From Paramesorhizobium deserti (GTDB lineage Bacteria > Pseudomonadota > Alphaproteobacteria > Rhizobiales > Rhizobiaceae), in the NCBI RefSeq assembly GCF_001558695.1, contig NZ_LNTU01000012.1, positions 558,001-622,000 of the forward strand: a stretch of DNA of 64,000 nt, written 5' to 3'. Below the pieces are notes generated by a model, which did no database searches, was not told where the DNA came from, and worked only from the letters and a program-made list of their open reading frames with translations. Positions 13,053 through 21,744 of this stretch are shown here, piece by piece; position 1 is the stretch's first letter, and every line of letters begins with the position of its first letter. The translations under genes and the position numbers were made by a program.

Positions 13053-13078
13053 AGCGTCCCTCCCATATGATTCCAAAT

Positions 13079-13093
13079 GTTCTTCTTATGTTC
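13079..13093 (+). promoter_or_regulatory. LexA (SOS) box before dinB
   Basis: GTTC-ttcttat-GTTC is an exact match to the alphaproteobacterial LexA operator GTTC-N7-GTTC. It lies between the GNAT start (13052, minus) and the most likely dinB start (13103, plus). Confidence 0.8.
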
Positions 13094-13102
13094 GCGATAC
13101 AC

Positions 13103-14416
13103 ATGGGCCCTGTCAACGATCCGCTTAGCGGTTTCTGCCGCGATTGCCTGACGCTGCAACGTCCCGCGGCGCGGCGCTGCCATGCCTGCGGCAGCCCGCG
13201 GCTCGTGCGTCATGACGAACTCTACAGCCTGTCGCTCGCACATATCGACTGCGACGCCTTCTATGCGGCGGTGGAGAAGCGCGACAATCCGGAGCTTCGG
13301 GACAAGCCGCTGATCATCGGCGGCGGCAAACGCGGCGTCGTCTCGACGGCCTGCTATATTGCCCGCATTCACGGCGTGCGCTCGGCCATGCCGATGTTCA
13401 AGGCGTTGGAGGCCTGCCCTGGAGCGGTGGTGCTGAAGCCGAATATGGAGAAATATGTCCGGGTTGGCCGAGAAATCCGGCAATTGATGCTGGAACTGAC
13501 GCCGCTGGTCGAACCGCTTTCGATCGACGAGGCGTTTCTTGATTTGAAGGGCACGGAGAAGCTGCATCGCGATCCCCCTGCCCGCGTGCTCGCGCGTTTC
13601 GCCAGGCGCATCGAGGACGAGATCGGCATCACCATCTCCATCGGCCTCTCTTATTGCAAATTCCTGGCGAAAGTTGCTTCCGATTTCGAGAAGCCGCGCG
13701 GTTTCTCCGTCATCGGAGAAAAGGAGGCGCTGTCCTTCCTCAAGGACAAGCCAGTGACGCTGATCTGGGGCGTAGGCAAAGCCTTCGCGGCGACCTTGCA
13801 GGCGGATGGCATCCGCTTGATCGGCCAGTTGCAGGGCATGGAGGAAGCGGCGCTGATGAAGGCCTATGGCACGATGGGCCAGCGGCTCTACCGCCTGTCA
13901 CGCGGGATGGATGTGCGGCGGGTCGAGCCTGATGGCGAGATGAAGAGCGTCTCGTCCGAGACCACCTTCAATACGGACCTCGCCTCCGCCGACGATCTGG
14001 TGCCGATCCTGCGCTCGCTTTCGGAGAAGGTGTCGCGGCGGCTGAAGGCCGGCGGCATCGCCGGACGAACGGTCGTCCTGAAGCTCAAGACGCGGGATTT
14101 CAAGATCAAGACGCGCAACCGACAGCTTTCCGATCCAACGCAGCTCGCCGACCGGATATTCCGCACCGGCCTGCAGCTTCTCGAAAAGGAGCTCGACGGG
14201 ACGAAGTTCCGCCTGATCGGCATCGGCGTCAGCGACTTGGCCGATGCGGGAAAGGCCGACCCACCCGACTTGGTCGACGCCCAGGCGACGAAGCGCGCCG
14301 TAGCCGAAAGCGCGATCGACAAACTTCGAAACAAGTTTGGCAACAAGGCTGTGGAGACCGGCTACACTTTCGGCAAGGAGCGGAGGGAACCGCCCCCGGA
14401 AGGCGCTGAGGGGTAA
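13103..14416 (+). CDS. dinB: DNA polymerase IV with N-terminal cysteine extension
   Basis: Y-family translesion polymerase. The catalytic acids are D49 and D51 ([14 protein letters not shown]) and D142/E143 ([11 protein letters not shown]). A helix-hairpin-helix and little-finger region follow ([11 protein letters not shown]..). An N-terminal extension with two CxxC pairs (C12/C15, C26/C29) resembles a zinc ribbon and is typical of rhizobial DinB. The protein is 437 residues. The start at 13103 is chosen because the upstream ATGs at 13067 and 13088 lie before or inside the LexA box. No clear ribosome-binding site precedes 13103, so a short-leader or leaderless mRNA is possible. It is expected to be induced by DNA damage. 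Confidence 0.93.
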
Positions 14417-15477: not shown

Positions 15478-18400
15478 CTAAACCAGCTCCACGTCCACCA
15501 CGCCCTTGATCGCCTTCATGGCGCTGGCGATCTGCGGGCTGACGCGGTAGCGGTCGGGTAGTTCGATCTCCACCTCGCGCAGGCCGTTCTCCTTGATGAC
15601 GATGAGGCTGACCTGCCCGTCGCCGCGCGTCGTCAGATGCGGCGTGATCTGCTTCAGCGCCTCGCTCGAGCGCAGATAGAGCCGCAGCGCCTTCTGGATG
15701 CGGCTCGCCTCGTCCTCCAGCGACTGGACGGTCTGGATGCGCAGGCTGATCCCCTCCGGCCGGTTCTCCGCCGCGACCGTGATCACCACCGATTTGCCCG
15801 ACTCGAGCAGGTCGCGGTATTGCGCGAGCCCTTCGGAGAAAAGCACCGCCTCGAACTGTCCGGTCGCATCCGACAGCTGCACGATGCCCATCTTGTTGCC
15901 GGTGCGGGTCTTGCGCTCCTGCCGGCTCGTCACCGTGCCGGCCAGCCGCCCGGCGCTGGCGCCGCGCTTGACGGCGTTGGAGAAATCGGCCCAGCTCTGC
16001 ACGCGCATTTTCTCCAGTACCGAGCGGTACTCGTCGAGCGGATGGGCGGAGAGATAGAAGCCGACCGCCTGGAACTCGCGATGCAGCTTTTCCGATGGAA
16101 GCCAGGGCGTTGCGACGGGAAGCTGCAGCTTCTCCTTGGGACCGCCGCTTGCCCCGAAAATATCCGCCTGGCCGCTGACGGCGTTTTCCTGCGTGCGCTG
16201 GGCATGGCCCATGATGCGGTCGAGCCCGGCGCTCATCGCCTCGCGGTCGCGCTTGAAGCAATCGAGCGCGCCTGAGTTGATCAGGCTTTCCAGAACCCGG
16301 CGGTTGACGACGCGCGGATCGATGCGCTCGCAGAAATCCTCTAGGCTCTCGTAAGGCTTCTCCTGCCGCTTCTCGACGATGTGGTCGACGGCGGCCTCAC
16401 CGACGCCCTTGATCGCGGCGAGCGAATAGAAAATCCTGTTCTCGCCCACCTCGAACGGCCGGAAGGAGCTCGTGACCGAAGGCTGCACGACCTCGATGCC
16501 GAGGCGTTCCGCCTCGCGGCGGAAATCGTTGAGCTTGTCCGTGTTGGACATATCGTAGGTCATCGAAGCGGCGAGGAACTCGACCGGATGATGCGCCTTC
16601 AGATAGGCGGTCTGGTAGGAGACGATGGCGTAGGCGGCCGCGTGCGACTTGTTGAAGCCATAGTCGGCGAATTTCGCCAGCAGGTCGAAGATCATGTTCG
16701 CCTGCGCCTTGCCGACGCCGCGCTCGACTGCGCCATCAACGAAGCGAATGCGCTGCTTGTCCATCTCCTCACGGATCTTCTTGCCCATGGCACGGCGCAA
16801 GAGATCCGCTTCGCCGAGCGAATAGCCGGCAAGCTCCTGCGCGATCTGCATCACCTGTTCCTGATAGACGATGACGCCCTGCGTCTCCTTCACCAAGTGA
16901 TCGATCTTCGGATGGATGGAGGCGACCTCCTCCTCGCCATGCTTGCGGGCATTATAGGTCGGGATGTTCTCCATCGGACCGGGGCGATAGAGCGCGACCA
17001 GCGCGATGATATCCTCGATGCGGTCCGGCTTCATGCCGATCAGCGCCTTGCGCATGCCCGCGCTTTCCACCTGGAACACGCCGACCGTCTCGCCGCGCGA
17101 CAGCATCTCGTAGGTGAGCTGGTCATCGAGCGGCAGGTTGGAAAGATCGATCTCGATGCCCTTTCGGGCGATGAGCTGCACCGCCGTCTGCAGGACCGTC
17201 AGCGTCTTCAGGCCGAGGAAGTCGAATTTGACCAGCCCCGCCTGCTCCACCCACTTCATGTTGAACTGGGTGACCGGCATGTCGGAGCGCGGGTCGCGGT
17301 ACATCGGCACCAGCTCCGACAGCGGCCGGTCGCCGATGACGATGCCCGCCGCGTGGGTCGAGGCGTGGCGGTAGAGCCCTTCGAGCTTCAGGCCGATATC
17401 GAGCAGCCGCCCGACCACCGGCTCCTTGTCGCGCTCCTCGATAAGCTTCGGCTCGCCCTCGATCGCCTGGCCGAGCGTCACCGGATTGGCCGGGTTCTGC
17501 GGTACCAGCTTGCAGAGCCTGTCCACCTGGCCATAAGGCATCTCGAGCACGCGCCCGACATCGCGCAGCACGGCGCGGGCCTGCAGCGTACCGAAGGTGA
17601 TGATCTGCGCCACCTGGTCGCGGCCATATTTGCGCTGAACGTAGCGGATGACCTCGTCGCGCCGATCCTGGCAGAAATCGATATCGAAGTCCGGCATCGA
17701 CACGCGGTCGGGATTCAAAAAGCGCTCGAAGAGCAGCGAGAAGCGCAAGGGATCGACGTCGGTGATGGTGAGCGCATAGGCGACCAGCGAGCCGGCGCCC
17801 GAACCGCGCCCCGGCCCGACGGGGATGCCTTGCGCCTTCGCCCATTTGATGAAGTCGGAAACTATCAGGAAGTAGCCGGGAAACTTCATCCGCGTGATGA
17901 TGCCGATCTCATATTCGAGACGCTCGGCATATTGCTCGCGCGTATAGCCCTCGGCCATCCCCAGGGTCTCGATGCGCCGCTCGAGGCCTTCGCGCGCCTG
18001 GCGGGCCATCTCGTCGGCTTCCGCCTTGAGGGCTGCCTCCGGATCATCGGCCTCGCCGGTAAAACGCGGCAGAATGGGCTTGCGGGTCTCTGGATAATAA
18101 CAGCAGCGCCGCGCGATCTCGACGGTATTCTCCAGCGCCTCCGGCAGGTCGGCGAAGAGCGCCGCCATCTCGGCCTGGCTCTTCAGATAGTGATCCGGCG
18201 TCAGCCGGCGGCGCTCGTCGGAGGAGAGCAATTGCCCTTCGGCGATGGCGAGCAGCGCGTCATGCGCCTCGAAATCGGCGCTCTCGCGGAAGAAAGCCTC
18301 ATTGGTCGCCACCAGAGGCAGAGCATTCGAATAGGCAAGCTCGACCATGCGCGCCTCGATCATCCGGTCATAGCCGGCGGGACGCTGCAGCTCGACATAG

Positions 18401-18984
18401 AGACGATCACCGAACAGGGAGTGCAGATAACGCAGCCGCTGCTCCGCGCGGTCGGCCCGCTCTGCGGCTAGCGCGCGGCCGATTGGCCCGAGTGCTGCGC
18501 CGGTCAGCGCGATGATGCCTTCCGAATGGCCTTCCAGCCAGCCGGCTTCGATATGCACAGGATCGCCGGGCGCCGTATCGAGATAGGCGCGGCTGACGAG
18601 CCGTACCAGATTGGCATAGCCCTCCTCACTGGCGGCGATCAGCACCATGGGCGCCAGCCCGAGCGCATCGCGCCTCGAAGCGCTGCGGCTGTCATCGCCA
18701 CTGTCGCCGAAGCCGATATCGAGCTGGCAGCCGATGATCGGCTGCACACCATCCTTGACGGCTTTCTGGGCGAATTCCAGCGCGCCGAAAAGATTGTTGG
18801 TGTCGGTGATGGCAATGGCCGGCGCATCGTCCTTGACCGCGTGGCCGATGATCTTGCCGACCTGCAGTGCACCCTCAAGCAGGGAATAGGCGGAATGGAC
18901 CCTCAAATGGATGAAACGCGGGCCGGATGTTCCATTGGCCCCGTTCGGCTCACCCGTTCCTGCCTGTGCCATGCCGTCTGCCAC
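15478..18984 (-). CDS. dnaE: DNA polymerase III alpha subunit
   Basis: The replicative polymerase catalytic subunit. An N-terminal PHP domain opens with FIHLRVHSAYSLLEGA. The catalytic acids are in VSMPDFDIDFCQDRR (near residue 430). A helix-hairpin-helix region and an OB domain (SAGRLAGTVTSRQERKTRTG) follow, with a C-terminal domain to EVELV. About 1168 residues, normal for DnaE1. GTG at 18984 (VADGMAQAG) is preceded by GGGGAAG; ATG at 18972 and ATG at 19032 are alternatives. A 28-codon ORF behind a LexA box lies 131 bp upstream on the same strand, so some read-through under SOS conditions is conceivable. Confidence 0.97.
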   Translation of the reverse strand: MADGMAQAGTGEPNGANGTSGPRFIHLRVHSAYSLLEGALQVGKIIGHAVKDDAPAIAITDTNNLFGALEFAQKAVKDGVQPIIGCQLDIGFGDSGDDSRSASRRDALGLAPMVLIAASEEGYANLVRLVSRAYLDTAPGDPVHIEAGWLEGHSEGIIALTGAALGPIGRALAAERADRAEQRLRYLHSLFGDRLYVELQRPAGYDRMIEARMVELAYSNALPLVATNEAFFRESADFEAHDALLAIAEGQLLSSDERRRLTPDHYLKSQAEMAALFADLPEALENTVEIARRCCYYPETRKPILPRFTGEADDPEAALKAEADEMARQAREGLERRIETLGMAEGYTREQYAERLEYEIGIITRMKFPGYFLIVSDFIKWAKAQGIPVGPGRGSGAGSLVAYALTITDVDPLRFSLLFERFLNPDRVSMPDFDIDFCQDRRDEVIRYVQRKYGRDQVAQIITFGTLQARAVLRDVGRVLEMPYGQVDRLCKLVPQNPANPVTLGQAIEGEPKLIEERDKEPVVGRLLDIGLKLEGLYRHASTHAAGIVIGDRPLSELVPMYRDPRSDMPVTQFNMKWVEQAGLVKFDFLGLKTLTVLQTAVQLIARKGIEIDLSNLPLDDQLTYEMLSRGETVGVFQVESAGMRKALIGMKPDRIEDIIALVALYRPGPMENIPTYNARKHGEEEVASIHPKIDHLVKETQGVIVYQEQVMQIAQELAGYSLGEADLLRRAMGKKIREEMDKQRIRFVDGAVERGVGKAQANMIFDLLAKFADYGFNKSHAAAYAIVSYQTAYLKAHHPVEFLAASMTYDMSNTDKLNDFRREAERLGIEVVQPSVTSSFRPFEVGENRIFYSLAAIKGVGEAAVDHIVEKRQEKPYESLEDFCERIDPRVVNRRVLESLINSGALDCFKRDREAMSAGLDRIMGHAQRTQENAVSGQADIFGASGGPKEKLQLPVATPWLPSEKLHREFQAVGFYLSAHPLDEYRSVLEKMRVQSWADFSNAVKRGASAGRLAGTVTSRQERKTRTGNKMGIVQLSDATGQFEAVLFSEGLAQYRDLLESGKSVVITVAAENRPEGISLRIQTVQSLEDEASRIQKALRLYLRSSEALKQITPHLTTRGDGQVSLIVIKENGLREVEIELPDRYRVSPQIASAMKAIKGVVDVELV

Positions 18985-19115
18985 TTCGCTTCCCCAATTG
19001 ACGCGTCCGGCGACTCTCGGCCGCCTCAGCATTCAGTCTTAGGGATCGTGCGCGGCATGTCCAGACAAAGCCGCGCCTGTTACAGGCAGTTAACAGTCTA
19101 CCGGCGGGAAATACC

Positions 19116-19202
19116 TCAGATCGCACTGACCCAGATGGCGAAAGTTGCAATGAACAGGCTGACGGAAACGAAGGACAAGACATCCTGGAAAAGATCGGGC
19201 AT
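19116..19202 (-). CDS. 28-residue SOS-controlled membrane peptide (SidA-like candidate)
   Basis: The ORF reads MPDLFQDVLSFVSVSLF then IATFAIWVSAI. The short N-terminus is acidic and amphipathic (two Asp). One hydrophobic stretch of about 20 residues ends in Trp-Val-Ser-Ala-Ile, as expected for a single inner-membrane helix. AGAGGAG (19211-19217) stands 8 bases before the ATG, a near-ideal ribosome-binding site. A LexA box sits 37 bases upstream, within a promoter having an exact CTTGAC -35. Size, topology and regulation recall Caulobacter SidA, a 29-residue SOS-induced membrane peptide that blocks division through FtsW. Sequence relatedness to SidA was not established, and the target is unknown. 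Confidence 0.65.
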   Translation of the reverse strand: MPDLFQDVLSFVSVSLFIATFAIWVSAI

Positions 19203-19239
19203 CGGTGAACTCCTCTCTGTTCGCGTATGTTTAGTTTTT

Positions 19240-19264
19240 GTTCCATTTTTGTTCTAAAGTCAAG
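19240..19264 (-). promoter_or_regulatory. SOS promoter: -35 box plus LexA box
   Basis: Read on the minus strand, CTTGAC (19264-19259) is the exact alphaproteobacterial -35 element. GAAC-aaaaatg-GAAC (19254-19240), which is GTTC-N7-GTTC on the plus strand, follows in the spacer where a -10 box would be covered. LexA bound here would block polymerase. It faces the 28-codon ORF (start 19202). Confidence 0.75.
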
Positions 19265-19376
19265 CAAGTTTTCCCCGCTGTTTTTCGCTCATGGTTTGCG
19301 AAGGGTTAATGGGATTGGGAGGCTTTCTTCGCCTTGGCGCGGTCACCTTGGATGGAAACGCCGGCGGGACAGCGCG

Positions 19377-19406
19377 CCCCTCTGCCCTGCCGGGCATCTC
19401 CCCGAG
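19377..19406 (+). repeat. Family A repeat, partial arm
   Basis: The segment cccctctgccctgccgggca...tctccccga matches the left arm of the repeat at 4051 and 27326, then diverges where the CACAAGGGGGG part should follow. No matching right arm is present, so this is a decayed half element. The rest of 19265-19523 shows nothing else. Confidence 0.7.
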
Positions 19407-19523
19407 GGAGCCGTCGCCGCGAGCCACGTTCCCGCGAGAAGAACTGAGGGCAAAGATTTGGGCAGAGCGGGAAGTGTAGGATAAGGTTTTGGAAGAAGGG
19501 TTTCGTTACGAGCGCTTTTATCG

Positions 19524-19692
19524 TTCCGGAATGGATCCTCGGATCAAGCCCGAGGATGACGACTGTGAGGAGGAAGGCACCTCAATAGCAGGCGCTGCGG
19601 CTGACACGAATTGGCAGGCGCTATGGCAGGAGACGAATGTTTCCATCCCTCCTATCGTCATCCTCGGGCTTGATCCGAGGATTCATTCCGGA
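19524..19692. repeat. Family B-type palindromic repeat (variant with GATCAAG)
   Basis: The arm ttccggaatggatcctcgg + atcaagcccgaggatgacgac (19524-19563) faces gtcatcctcgggcttgatcc + gaggattcattccgga (about 19657-19692). Each arm has an inner palindrome TCCTCGG-ATCAAG-CCCGAGGA. The 90-base centre has no recognisable content. It lies downstream of lolD (minus strand). Confidence 0.85.
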
Positions 19693-19762: not shown

Positions 19763-20458
19763 TCAGATATCGACGACCTTGCCGTCCTTCAGCGTCACGC
19801 GACGGTCCATGCGGGCGGCGAGCTCGTGGTTGTGGGTGGCGATCAGCGCGGAAAGGCCGGATTGGCGCACCAGCGCTTCCAGCGCGTCGAAGACGTAACC
19901 GGCCGTCTGCGGGTCGAGATTGCCGGTCGGCTCGTCGGCGAGAAGCACCAGCGGCGCGTTGGCGACGGCGCGGGCGATCGCCACGCGCTGCTGCTCGCCG
20001 CCGGAAAGCTCCGACGGGCGGTGCGAGGCGCGTGGGCCGACCTTCATGTAATCGAGAAGCTGCTGCGCCCGCTCGGCGGCCGCCGCCGGGGAGAGCCCGC
20101 GCACCATCTGCGGGATCATCACATTCTCAAGCGCGGAGAATTCCGGCAGAAGGTGATGGAACTGGTAGACGAAGCCGACATCGTTGCGGCGGATTGCGGT
20201 ACGCTCGTCATCGGAAAGCGCACTGCAGGACCGGCCGTCGAGGATGACATCGCCCTTGTCAGGGTGCTCGAGCAACCCGGCGGTATGCAGAAGCGTGGAC
20301 TTCCCAGCGCCGGAAGGCGCGACAAGCGCCACCATCTCGCCGCGCTGAAGCGAAAAATCGGCATCCTTCAGGATGACCAGCTCGCGCCCGGCCTCATGAT
20401 AAGCGCGGTCGACGCCGGTGAGCTTCAGAATAGGGTTGCGAAGCTGTTTGTTCGCCAT
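19763..20458 (-). CDS. lolD: Lipoprotein-releasing ABC transporter ATPase
   Basis: Cytoplasmic ATPase that powers release of outer-membrane lipoproteins from the inner membrane to the carrier LolA. Walker A is APSGAGKST (residues 48-56), the signature is [15 protein letters not shown], and Walker B/D-loop is [14 protein letters not shown]. The 231 residues fit LolD. ATG at 20458 overlaps the lolE stop (TGATG); a GTG directly before it is an alternative. It is co-oriented with lolE and proS. A palindromic repeat lies downstream. Confidence 0.95.
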
Positions 20459-21744
20459 CACTCATACCTCAGGGCTTCGACCGGATCGAGCGCGGCGGCG
20501 CGCCAGGCCGGGAAAAGCGTGGCGAGGAAGGAGAGCGCCAGCGCCATGACGACGACGGAGATCGTCTCGCCGGGGTCCATCTTGGCCGGCAGCTGGCTCA
20601 GGAAATAGAGCTCGGGATTGAAGAGCGTGGTGCCGGAAAGCCAGGAAAAGAATTCGCGGATGCGCTCGACATTCAAACAGACGACAATGCCGAGCACCAC
20701 GCCGGCCAGGGTGCCGGCGGTGCCGATGGCGGCCCCCGTCATCAGGAAGATGCGCAGGATGGCATTGCGGGTCGCGCCCATGGTGCGCAGGATTGCGATG
20801 TCCCTGCCCTTGTCCTTAACCAGCATGATCAGGCCGGAAATGATGTTGAGCGCCGCGACGAGCACGATCAGCGTCAGGATCATGAACATCACGTTGCGCT
20901 CGACTTCCAGCGCGGAAAAGAAGGTCTGGTTACGCTGGCGCCAGTCGGTCAGGAGGAGCTGGCGGCCGGCGACGTCCTCGACAGGCTTCTTCAGCGCATC
21001 AACATTATCCGGATTGTCGGCGAAAATCTCGATCGACTGCACCTTGCCTTCCTGGTTGAAGAAGAGCTGCGCCTCGGTCAACGGCATGAGAACGATCGTG
21101 GCATCATATTCCGACATGCCGATCTCGAAGATGGCCACGATCTTGTAGGATTTGACCCGCGGATTGACGCCGAAGGGCGTGACATCGCCTTCCGGCGAGA
21201 CGATCGTCAGGCTATCGCCGACAGCGAGCCCGAGATTTTGGGCCATGCGGGTGCCGATAGCGACACCGCCGCTCTCATCGAAACCCTCGAACGTGCCCTG
21301 CCTCACATTGTCTGCGACGAGTTTCAATTTGGCGATATCCTCGCCGCGCAGGCCACGCACCAGGGCGCCGGAACCGGCGCCGACATTGCCCTGGACCAGC
21401 GCCTGGCCTTCGACCAGCGGAATGGCGAAGGAGACGCCCGGAATGGCATCTATGCGCTTGATCAAATCGGCATAGTCATCGAGCGGCCGGTCCATGGGCT
21501 GCATGATCAGATGGCCGTTGATTCCGAGGATGCGGGTCAACAGCTCGGCGCGGAAACCGTTCATCACCGCCATGACGATGATCAGCGTCGCGACGCCGAG
21601 CATGATACCGGTGAAGGAGAAGCCGGCGATGACCGAAATGAACGCCTCGCGGCGGCGGGCGCGCAGATAGCGCCACGCGATCATCCGCTCGAAGGCGGAA
21701 AAAGGGCCGGAGCCCTGCCTTGTCGCAGCCGCCGATTCGCTCAT
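20458..21744 (-). CDS. lolE: Lipoprotein-releasing ABC transporter permease (LolC/E family)
   Basis: A 428-residue inner-membrane permease with the MacB/FtsX layout. One N-terminal helix ([25 protein letters not shown]) is followed by a large periplasmic domain (about 60-280). Three C-terminal helices come next ([59 protein letters not shown]). The ending [12 protein letters not shown] is the classic LolC/E/MacB tail. The single permease probably forms a homodimer in this lineage. It overlaps proS (ATGA) upstream and lolD downstream. Confidence 0.93.

Follow-up and report, generated by a model that had tools for sequence, protein, structure and literature searches.

The 28-residue peptide encoded between lolD and dnaE on the minus strand of the window (the whole stretch of 64,000 nucleotides analysed here) is likely to be an ortholog of SidA, the SOS-induced division inhibitor of Caulobacter, and would probably act via FtsW. 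This assignment draws on its sequence, its predicted LexA operator and its position.

Organization of the locus

The peptide ORF, the proposed sidA ortholog, occupies positions 19116..19202 (minus strand, 28 codons, coordinates including the stop), with its ATG at 19202-19200 and its stop codon at 19118-19116. Its product, MPDLFQDVLSFVSVSLFIATFAIWVSAI, has 28 amino acids, with acidic residues at positions 3 and 7 and no basic residue. Its peak hydropathy of 2.19 over 17 residues is that of a single transmembrane-type helix. Upstream on the same strand, the predicted LexA operator GAAC-N7-GAAC lies at 19240..19254 (GAACAAAAATGGAAC; the plus strand reads GTTCCATTTTTGTTC) and is immediately preceded by a -35-like TTGAC at 19259..19263, while a degenerate third half-site, AAAC, at the 11-bp spacing, was recognized at 19229..19232 from the operator alignment. 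The first-pass annotation had described the hydrophobic 28-residue ORF with two acids near its N-terminus, a CTTGAC -35 element at 19264-19259 and the GAAC-N7-GAAC box at 19254-19240, and all of these are present as described. The Shine-Dalgarno sequence AGAGGAG that it reported is also there, at 19216-19210, but 7 nucleotides ahead of the ATG and not 8.

Downstream of the ORF lies dnaE, encoding the DNA polymerase III alpha subunit (15478..19032, minus strand; NCBIfam NF004226, 1523 bits; where translation begins in this ORF is uncertain). The upstream neighbor (19763..20461, minus strand) is taken as lolD from its best NCBIfam match, TIGR02211 LolD, whose 255 bits lie below the cut-off of 307.75. 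Neither Pfam nor NCBIfam matched any of the three peptides tested. Scanning 18900-19500 for sigma-70 promoters gave no complete promoter-like site, and a terminator scan of the same interval returned one plus-strand site, which is within chance. Between the operator and lolD, a repeat of about 35 bp was seen by eye in two inverted copies (19528-19562 and 19655-19689), which is reminiscent of the short palindromes that are repeated in genomes of rhizobia.

Conservation and selection in close relatives

When 61 genomes were searched with the peptide at a lax threshold (E<=10), 30 gave a match, including all six genomes of the genus at E<=1e-9. Eight close orthologs, six from the genus and two from other genera, were then compared. 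Over all of their pairs pN/pS was 0.146, and the majority fraction at codon positions 1, 2 and 3 was 0.93, 0.99 and 0.78, respectively. In the same alignment, the majority fraction was 0.90 in the stretch covering the -35 element and the box, and 0.64 after the stop codon. Six of the eight have AGAGGAG as their Shine-Dalgarno sequence and the remaining two have CGAGGAG and AAGAAGGG, the distance to the start codon being similar throughout. Judged from the alignment, purifying selection acts on the amino-acid sequence of the predicted peptide. The first-pass annotation had staked its reading on conservation of the ORF, the ribosome-binding site and the LexA box in relatives, and all three proved to be conserved.

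The LexA operator in this genome

Taken by itself the box is not significant, since the window holds three copies of GTTC-N7-GTTC where 1.6 would be expected (at least three in 23 of 100 shuffles), and exact GAAC-N7-GAAC occurs 144 times across the genome, as compared to 98 for a reversed-pattern control. The pattern is nevertheless predicted from its placement to be an operator in use in this genome. Within the window, an exact box at 13079..13093 (plus strand) falls in the start region of dinB (13067-14416; DNA polymerase IV, NF002751, 729 bits) and serves as a positive control. Ten exact boxes, chosen mostly for their A/T-rich spacers, were inspected, and four of them fall at SOS genes, with two in the gap that separates ssb from uvrA, one ahead of recA and one at dinB; RecA, SSB and UvrA were named from fragments of 44-50 residues whose matches fall far below the full-length cut-offs. 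The other six are unassigned. The lexA gene of the same genome carries an exact box too.

Alignment of 57 operator rows, in which one locus appears twice, gave the consensus tTgac-N4-GAACAaAaa.aGAACA. TTGAC stands at most 14 bp ahead of the box in 37 of the 57 rows. At +22, that is 11 bp further on, [GA]AAC is found in 32 of the 57 rows and GAAC in 12, again with one locus counted twice.

Survey of the region upstream of dnaE

We asked how often an exact box, in either orientation, is followed within 90 bp by an ATG-initiated ORF of 20-50 amino acids with a hydropathy peak above 1.6, all within 700 bp upstream of dnaE. Three sets, none of them a random sample, were read. For the family set, 91 genomes were searched, 87 gave a dnaE match and 70 of these were read, which became 69 after the genome of the window was left out. 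The class set comprised 122 of 361 genomes with a match (387 searched), drawn from the better-scoring places listed with some skipped, and was reduced to 120 by dropping two rows, the own genome and one of the same family; three of its stretches are shorter than 700 bp and some genera are repeated. The named set consisted of 30 loci returned from 40 genomes with a match (41 searched).

The arrangement was found in 31/69 genomes of the family set, 17/120 of the class set and 18/30 of the named set. For L256 (family) and L231 (named), the ORF that was scored starts at an ATG in the wrong frame, and the correct peptide follows the same box. The reverse complements gave no pass in any set, and 50 Markov reshuffles gave a mean of 0.0 and a maximum of 0. 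Similar predicted LexA-controlled peptides would thus appear to occur in other alphaproteobacteria; 103 of the 120 class genomes fail this strict test. Among the 12 named failures, five Caulobacter loci have the peptide behind boxes with one mismatch, and the peptide of Brevundimonas nasdae, MPRLMRDMLSLASCGGFVWMVWQAALMATSV, is preceded by two exact boxes but falls short of the hydropathy limit. In Pleomorphomonas and B. albigilva exact boxes are present but no ORF was accepted, and in two Hyphomicrobium, in Azorhizobium and in Oceanicaulis (636 bp covered) the sequence read upstream of dnaE contains no exact box.

These results bear on the reading that a chance ORF happens to stand behind a chance box. 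GAAC-N7-GAAC is indeed common in the genome, as the counts above show, but the conservation of box and peptide, the selection on the latter and the zero passes in the controls all stand against it. The conservation of the box, the peptide and their spacing, together with those controls, raises the box above chance, and we reject coincidence as having next to no probability.

Probable identity with SidA of Caulobacter

In six Caulobacter loci and one Phenylobacterium locus, a 29-amino-acid peptide, M[VI]R[ILV]ARESLA[LF]VSV..FVWMMC.VAQ, is encoded just upstream of dnaE, although an in-frame upstream ATG would extend it to 40 residues in Caulobacter sp. BP25 and to 50 in C. zeae. BP25 and Phenylobacterium have exact boxes, and each of the remaining five loci has a box with a single mismatch. 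One of two Brevundimonas loci has the peptide upstream of dnaE. The genomes of these three genera were found, along with others, by a CtrA search of the named genomes, C. crescentus itself not being among them, and in the two Caulobacter loci tested an IU_nuc_hydro gene (PF01156) precedes the peptide.

In print, sidA is CCNA_02004 (PMC10769358), CCNA_02005 is an inosine-uridine nucleoside hydrolase (PMC3667746), and SidA is described as a 29-amino-acid inner membrane protein that binds FtsW (PMC4211646). The gene dnaE is given as CC1926 (PMC1839093), and its adjacency to CCNA_02004 is inferred, since its NA1000 locus tag was not found in print. Because the length, the LexA-like boxes and the hydrolase neighbor agree with published CCNA_02004/CCNA_02005, we conclude that the 29-residue Caulobacter peptide is probably SidA, identified by position and description and not by SidA's own sequence.

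The peptide in the window resembles SidA in size (28 versus 29 amino acids), in its single hydrophobic helix, in its LexA-type operator and in its place just upstream of dnaE. In addition, M-x5-[DE]-x-L-[SA]-[FL]-[VI]-S-V-x2-F-[VI] is common to it and to the peptides of the Caulobacter species. The first-pass annotation had called the ORF SidA-like, and the case is stronger than it proposed, as position upstream of dnaE, operator, size, shape and sequence similarity are all shared. There are also differences. The C-terminal halves diverge, the upstream neighbor is a nucleoside hydrolase gene in Caulobacter and lolD here, and the Caulobacter peptides have R3 and R6 whereas the peptide in the window has no basic residue. 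Given the lack of counterparts of R3 and R6, its topology or contacts may differ.

The sequence similarity between the rhizobial and Caulobacterales peptides was evaluated with profiles. Profile A1 was built from 32 peptides (28 of the family, with Aurantimonas, Microvirga, Xanthobacteraceae and G365), and hhalign of A1 against five Caulobacterales peptides gave an E-value of 1.6e-4, with a probability of only 50.5. Scored with a profile of rhizobial peptides, Caulobacter reached 14.2 bits, Phenylobacterium 16.1 and Brevundimonas nasdae 18.9, and for none of the three did any of 1000 shuffles of the peptide do as well. In a separate series, 29 peptides (28 of the family plus Aurantimonas) made up the profile, and five real scores were the reference. 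Among 5000 full shuffles, 5 reached the lowest real score and 1 the median; the numbers were 13 and 1 when only residues 9-29 were shuffled, and 3 of 5000 random hydrophobic peptides reached the lowest. When only residues 2-8 were shuffled, 1768 of 5000 reached the lowest score and 258 the median. The match therefore rests on the helix, and the N-terminus adds little, since shuffles of residues 2-8 often keep or raise the score. In a search of three whole Caulobacterales genomes, profile A1 did not detect the peptide at E<=1.

Among 25 distant peptides, picked by hand at about one per genus, eight beat all 1000 of their own shuffles. For six others, over 70 of the 1000 shuffles equalled the real score (G305, 403; G331, 297; G159, 157; G118, 138; Maricaulis, 108; G168, 73), so that homology in these six rests on position. 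Fisher's combination over the distant peptides was 5e-25, a value that treats related sequences as independent.

The operator stays with the peptide away from dnaE

An ORF in the 5' region of dnaE could be a leader peptide (uORF), in which case the LexA box would induce dnaE. No terminator-like site was found on the minus strand within 18900-19500, as this reading would expect, and C. crescentus dnaE is listed as SOS-regulated (PMC3323433). Furthermore, a translated small ORF of S. meliloti, sORF25, was detected by Ribo-seq in the 5'-UTR of dnaE1 and, together with suggested uORF roles, proposed as a possible uORF (PMC10117765). Its position equals that of the peptide in the window, and judged by position only sORF25 is probably this gene; neither 'SidA' nor 'SOS' occurs in the main text of that report.

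The family genomes in which dnaE and the peptide are separated speak against a leader peptide. In 37 of the 70, dnaE lacks the box-plus-peptide arrangement, and no exact box was found in the 1000 bp upstream of dnaE in these 37 (exact boxes only; one stretch is only 397 bp long). Profile A1 nevertheless detected the peptide in 34 of them at E<=0.01. The loci were read in 28 of those 34, and, with one more from a genome already positive (L345), 29 loci were available. Four of the 28 stand beside dnaE, with the box having one mismatch or absent, while around the other 24 the 1.5 kb on hand contains no start of dnaE. An exact box lies 36-95 bp ahead of the ATG in 23 of these 24 separated copies, L013 being the one without. 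Over all 29 loci, five have a one-mismatch box or none. Thus the box belongs to the peptide, as the separated copies keep it exact and the dnaE genes there have none in the stretch read. Linkage of ORF and box to dnaE, on which a leader peptide would depend, fails in these 24 copies, and the retained box is a strong argument against that reading, as is the selection on the amino-acid sequence. We accordingly regard a dnaE leader peptide as highly improbable, and favor the SidA ortholog with its own operator; dnaE could possibly be induced by read-through as a side effect.

In these genomes, lolD adjoins the peptide in 14 of the 24 copies away from dnaE. In this large subset of the family (37/70) dnaE has come to lie apart from the box-peptide unit, which often stays at lolD, and the rearrangement may mark a clade. 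One genome has two copies, L340 (G013:C91) with an exact LexA box (GAACAAAAATAGAAC) and L013 (G013:C37) without.

Proposed mechanism and the question of the target

In the mechanism that we propose, LexA would bind right after the -35 element and keep the gene off. Upon DNA damage, RecA-stimulated cleavage of LexA would turn it on, and the 28-residue single-pass inner-membrane peptide would be made. The peptide would then bind the divisome within the membrane, most likely at FtsW, holding septal wall synthesis inactive until the damage is repaired. LexA binding, induction, membrane insertion, the division block and the FtsW target are steps that we infer; damage-induced relief of LexA repression and an FtsW/FtsI/FtsN complex held inactive are carried over by analogy with SidA.

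The rhizobial group grows at the pole. A SidA-family peptide might have moved in rhizobia to another membrane target, such as the polar growth machinery. The divergence from the Caulobacter peptide and the N-terminus that is not basic would suit such a shift. A Pfam search found a single SEDS protein in this genome, whose closest counterpart is Caulobacter's FtsW-type protein (48-49% identity), and FtsW as the sole SEDS protein found also counts toward a different target. On the other hand, the FtsW residues A31, F145 and A246, at three published SidA-suppressor positions, are identical in this genome (the numbering and the comparison follow Caulobacter sp. BP25, where these residues are present, and not C. 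crescentus). The unchanged residues are weakly compatible with FtsW as the target, as FtsW is conserved anyway. A change of target seems unlikely to us, and FtsW stays the preferred partner of the putative SidA ortholog.

A related possibility is an SOS-induced peptide that acts on the membrane and not on the divisome. TisB of E. coli is a LexA-controlled membrane peptide that acts on the membrane and is controlled by an antisense RNA. TisB and DinQ are of about the size of the peptide in the window, and both share with it LexA control and a single helix. However, the similarity and position shared with the sidA site, the uncharged interior of the helix and the lack of any Rfam match to described RNA families at E<=1 within 18800-19600 argue against a peptide of this kind, which we consider quite unlikely. 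DinQ itself is a toxic single transmembrane SOS peptide (PMC3567139).

Other small division inhibitors provide further comparisons. DidA of C. crescentus is likewise a small single-helix inhibitor that acts on the FtsW/I/N complex upon DNA damage (PMC4211646), but it has 71 amino acids, is SOS-independent (DriD) and binds FtsN; the 28 residues and the LexA box of the present peptide place it outside the DidA type. YneA, SosA and ChiZ are small membrane division inhibitors induced by SOS or damage and proposed to act on FtsW (PMC13396833). They come from Gram-positive bacteria and mycobacteria. In a low-confidence model in the same report, SidA binds FtsW at TM7, on the other side than YneA, SosA and ChiZ (PMC13396833).

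No SOS division inhibitor of rhizobia is named among the literature matches listed, which were largely titles and abstract openings. Likewise, no SidA ortholog outside Caulobacter is described in the portions consulted of PMC4211646, PMC3323433, PMC12700426, PMC13384398, PMC1839093, PMC10769358, PMC10117765, PMC4117421, PMC13396833, PMC6385055 and PMC3667746. If our reading is correct, an SOS division inhibitor of rhizobia can be named, S. meliloti sORF25 can be tested for a checkpoint role in place of the uORF reading, and LexA sites attributed to dnaE may in fact serve sidA. SidA, studied in one genus, would become an alignable family that shows which helix residues may matter for FtsW inhibition.

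Copies in probable prophages and mobile elements

Nine further copies were found in five genomes (three of the genus and two of other genera of the family), and eight of the nine have no exact box in the preceding 200 bp. One lies on a contig of 42,186 bases near a RecE-type exonuclease, and this contig matches an IMG/VR viral contig in the stretch compared. On a second IMG/VR contig, of which 11 kb were covered, a near-identical copy is accompanied by RecT, exonuclease VIII and a CI-like repressor. Scored on the host profile, five phage-type copies reach 35-51 bits. SidA-like peptides in prophage early regions without a LexA box lie at L378 9706-9804 (plus strand; exonuclease VIII) and at L379 2405-2503 (minus strand; exonuclease VIII, RecT and a CI-like repressor). 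A tblastn search of plasmids and phages with the peptide of the window gave no match, and a single match of a prophage-type copy to an ssRNA phage, at an E-value of 2, was disregarded.

Temperate phages seem to carry the host checkpoint peptide. As these copies lack the LexA box and stand among the recombination (early) genes, in one case with a CI-like repressor close by, induction of the prophage may bring about the same arrest of division. More broadly, SidA may be no peculiarity of Caulobacter but an ancestral SOS checkpoint gene of much of the Alphaproteobacteria, a unit of promoter, operator and peptide that is separable from dnaE and was acquired by temperate phages, a scenario to which we give an even chance.

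L337, L339 and L341 are more tentative SidA-like peptides of prophage early regions, also without a LexA box; among the neighbors of L337 and L339 are members of uncharacterized phage families and a protein resembling a repressor. L334, L335, L336 and L338 form a group of divergent SidA-like ORFs of the MIDLIHGALSVVSIGLFIATIAVWIG type without a box, and L334 lies near a Mob_Pre-like protein (below the cut-off), which points to a plasmid-type element.
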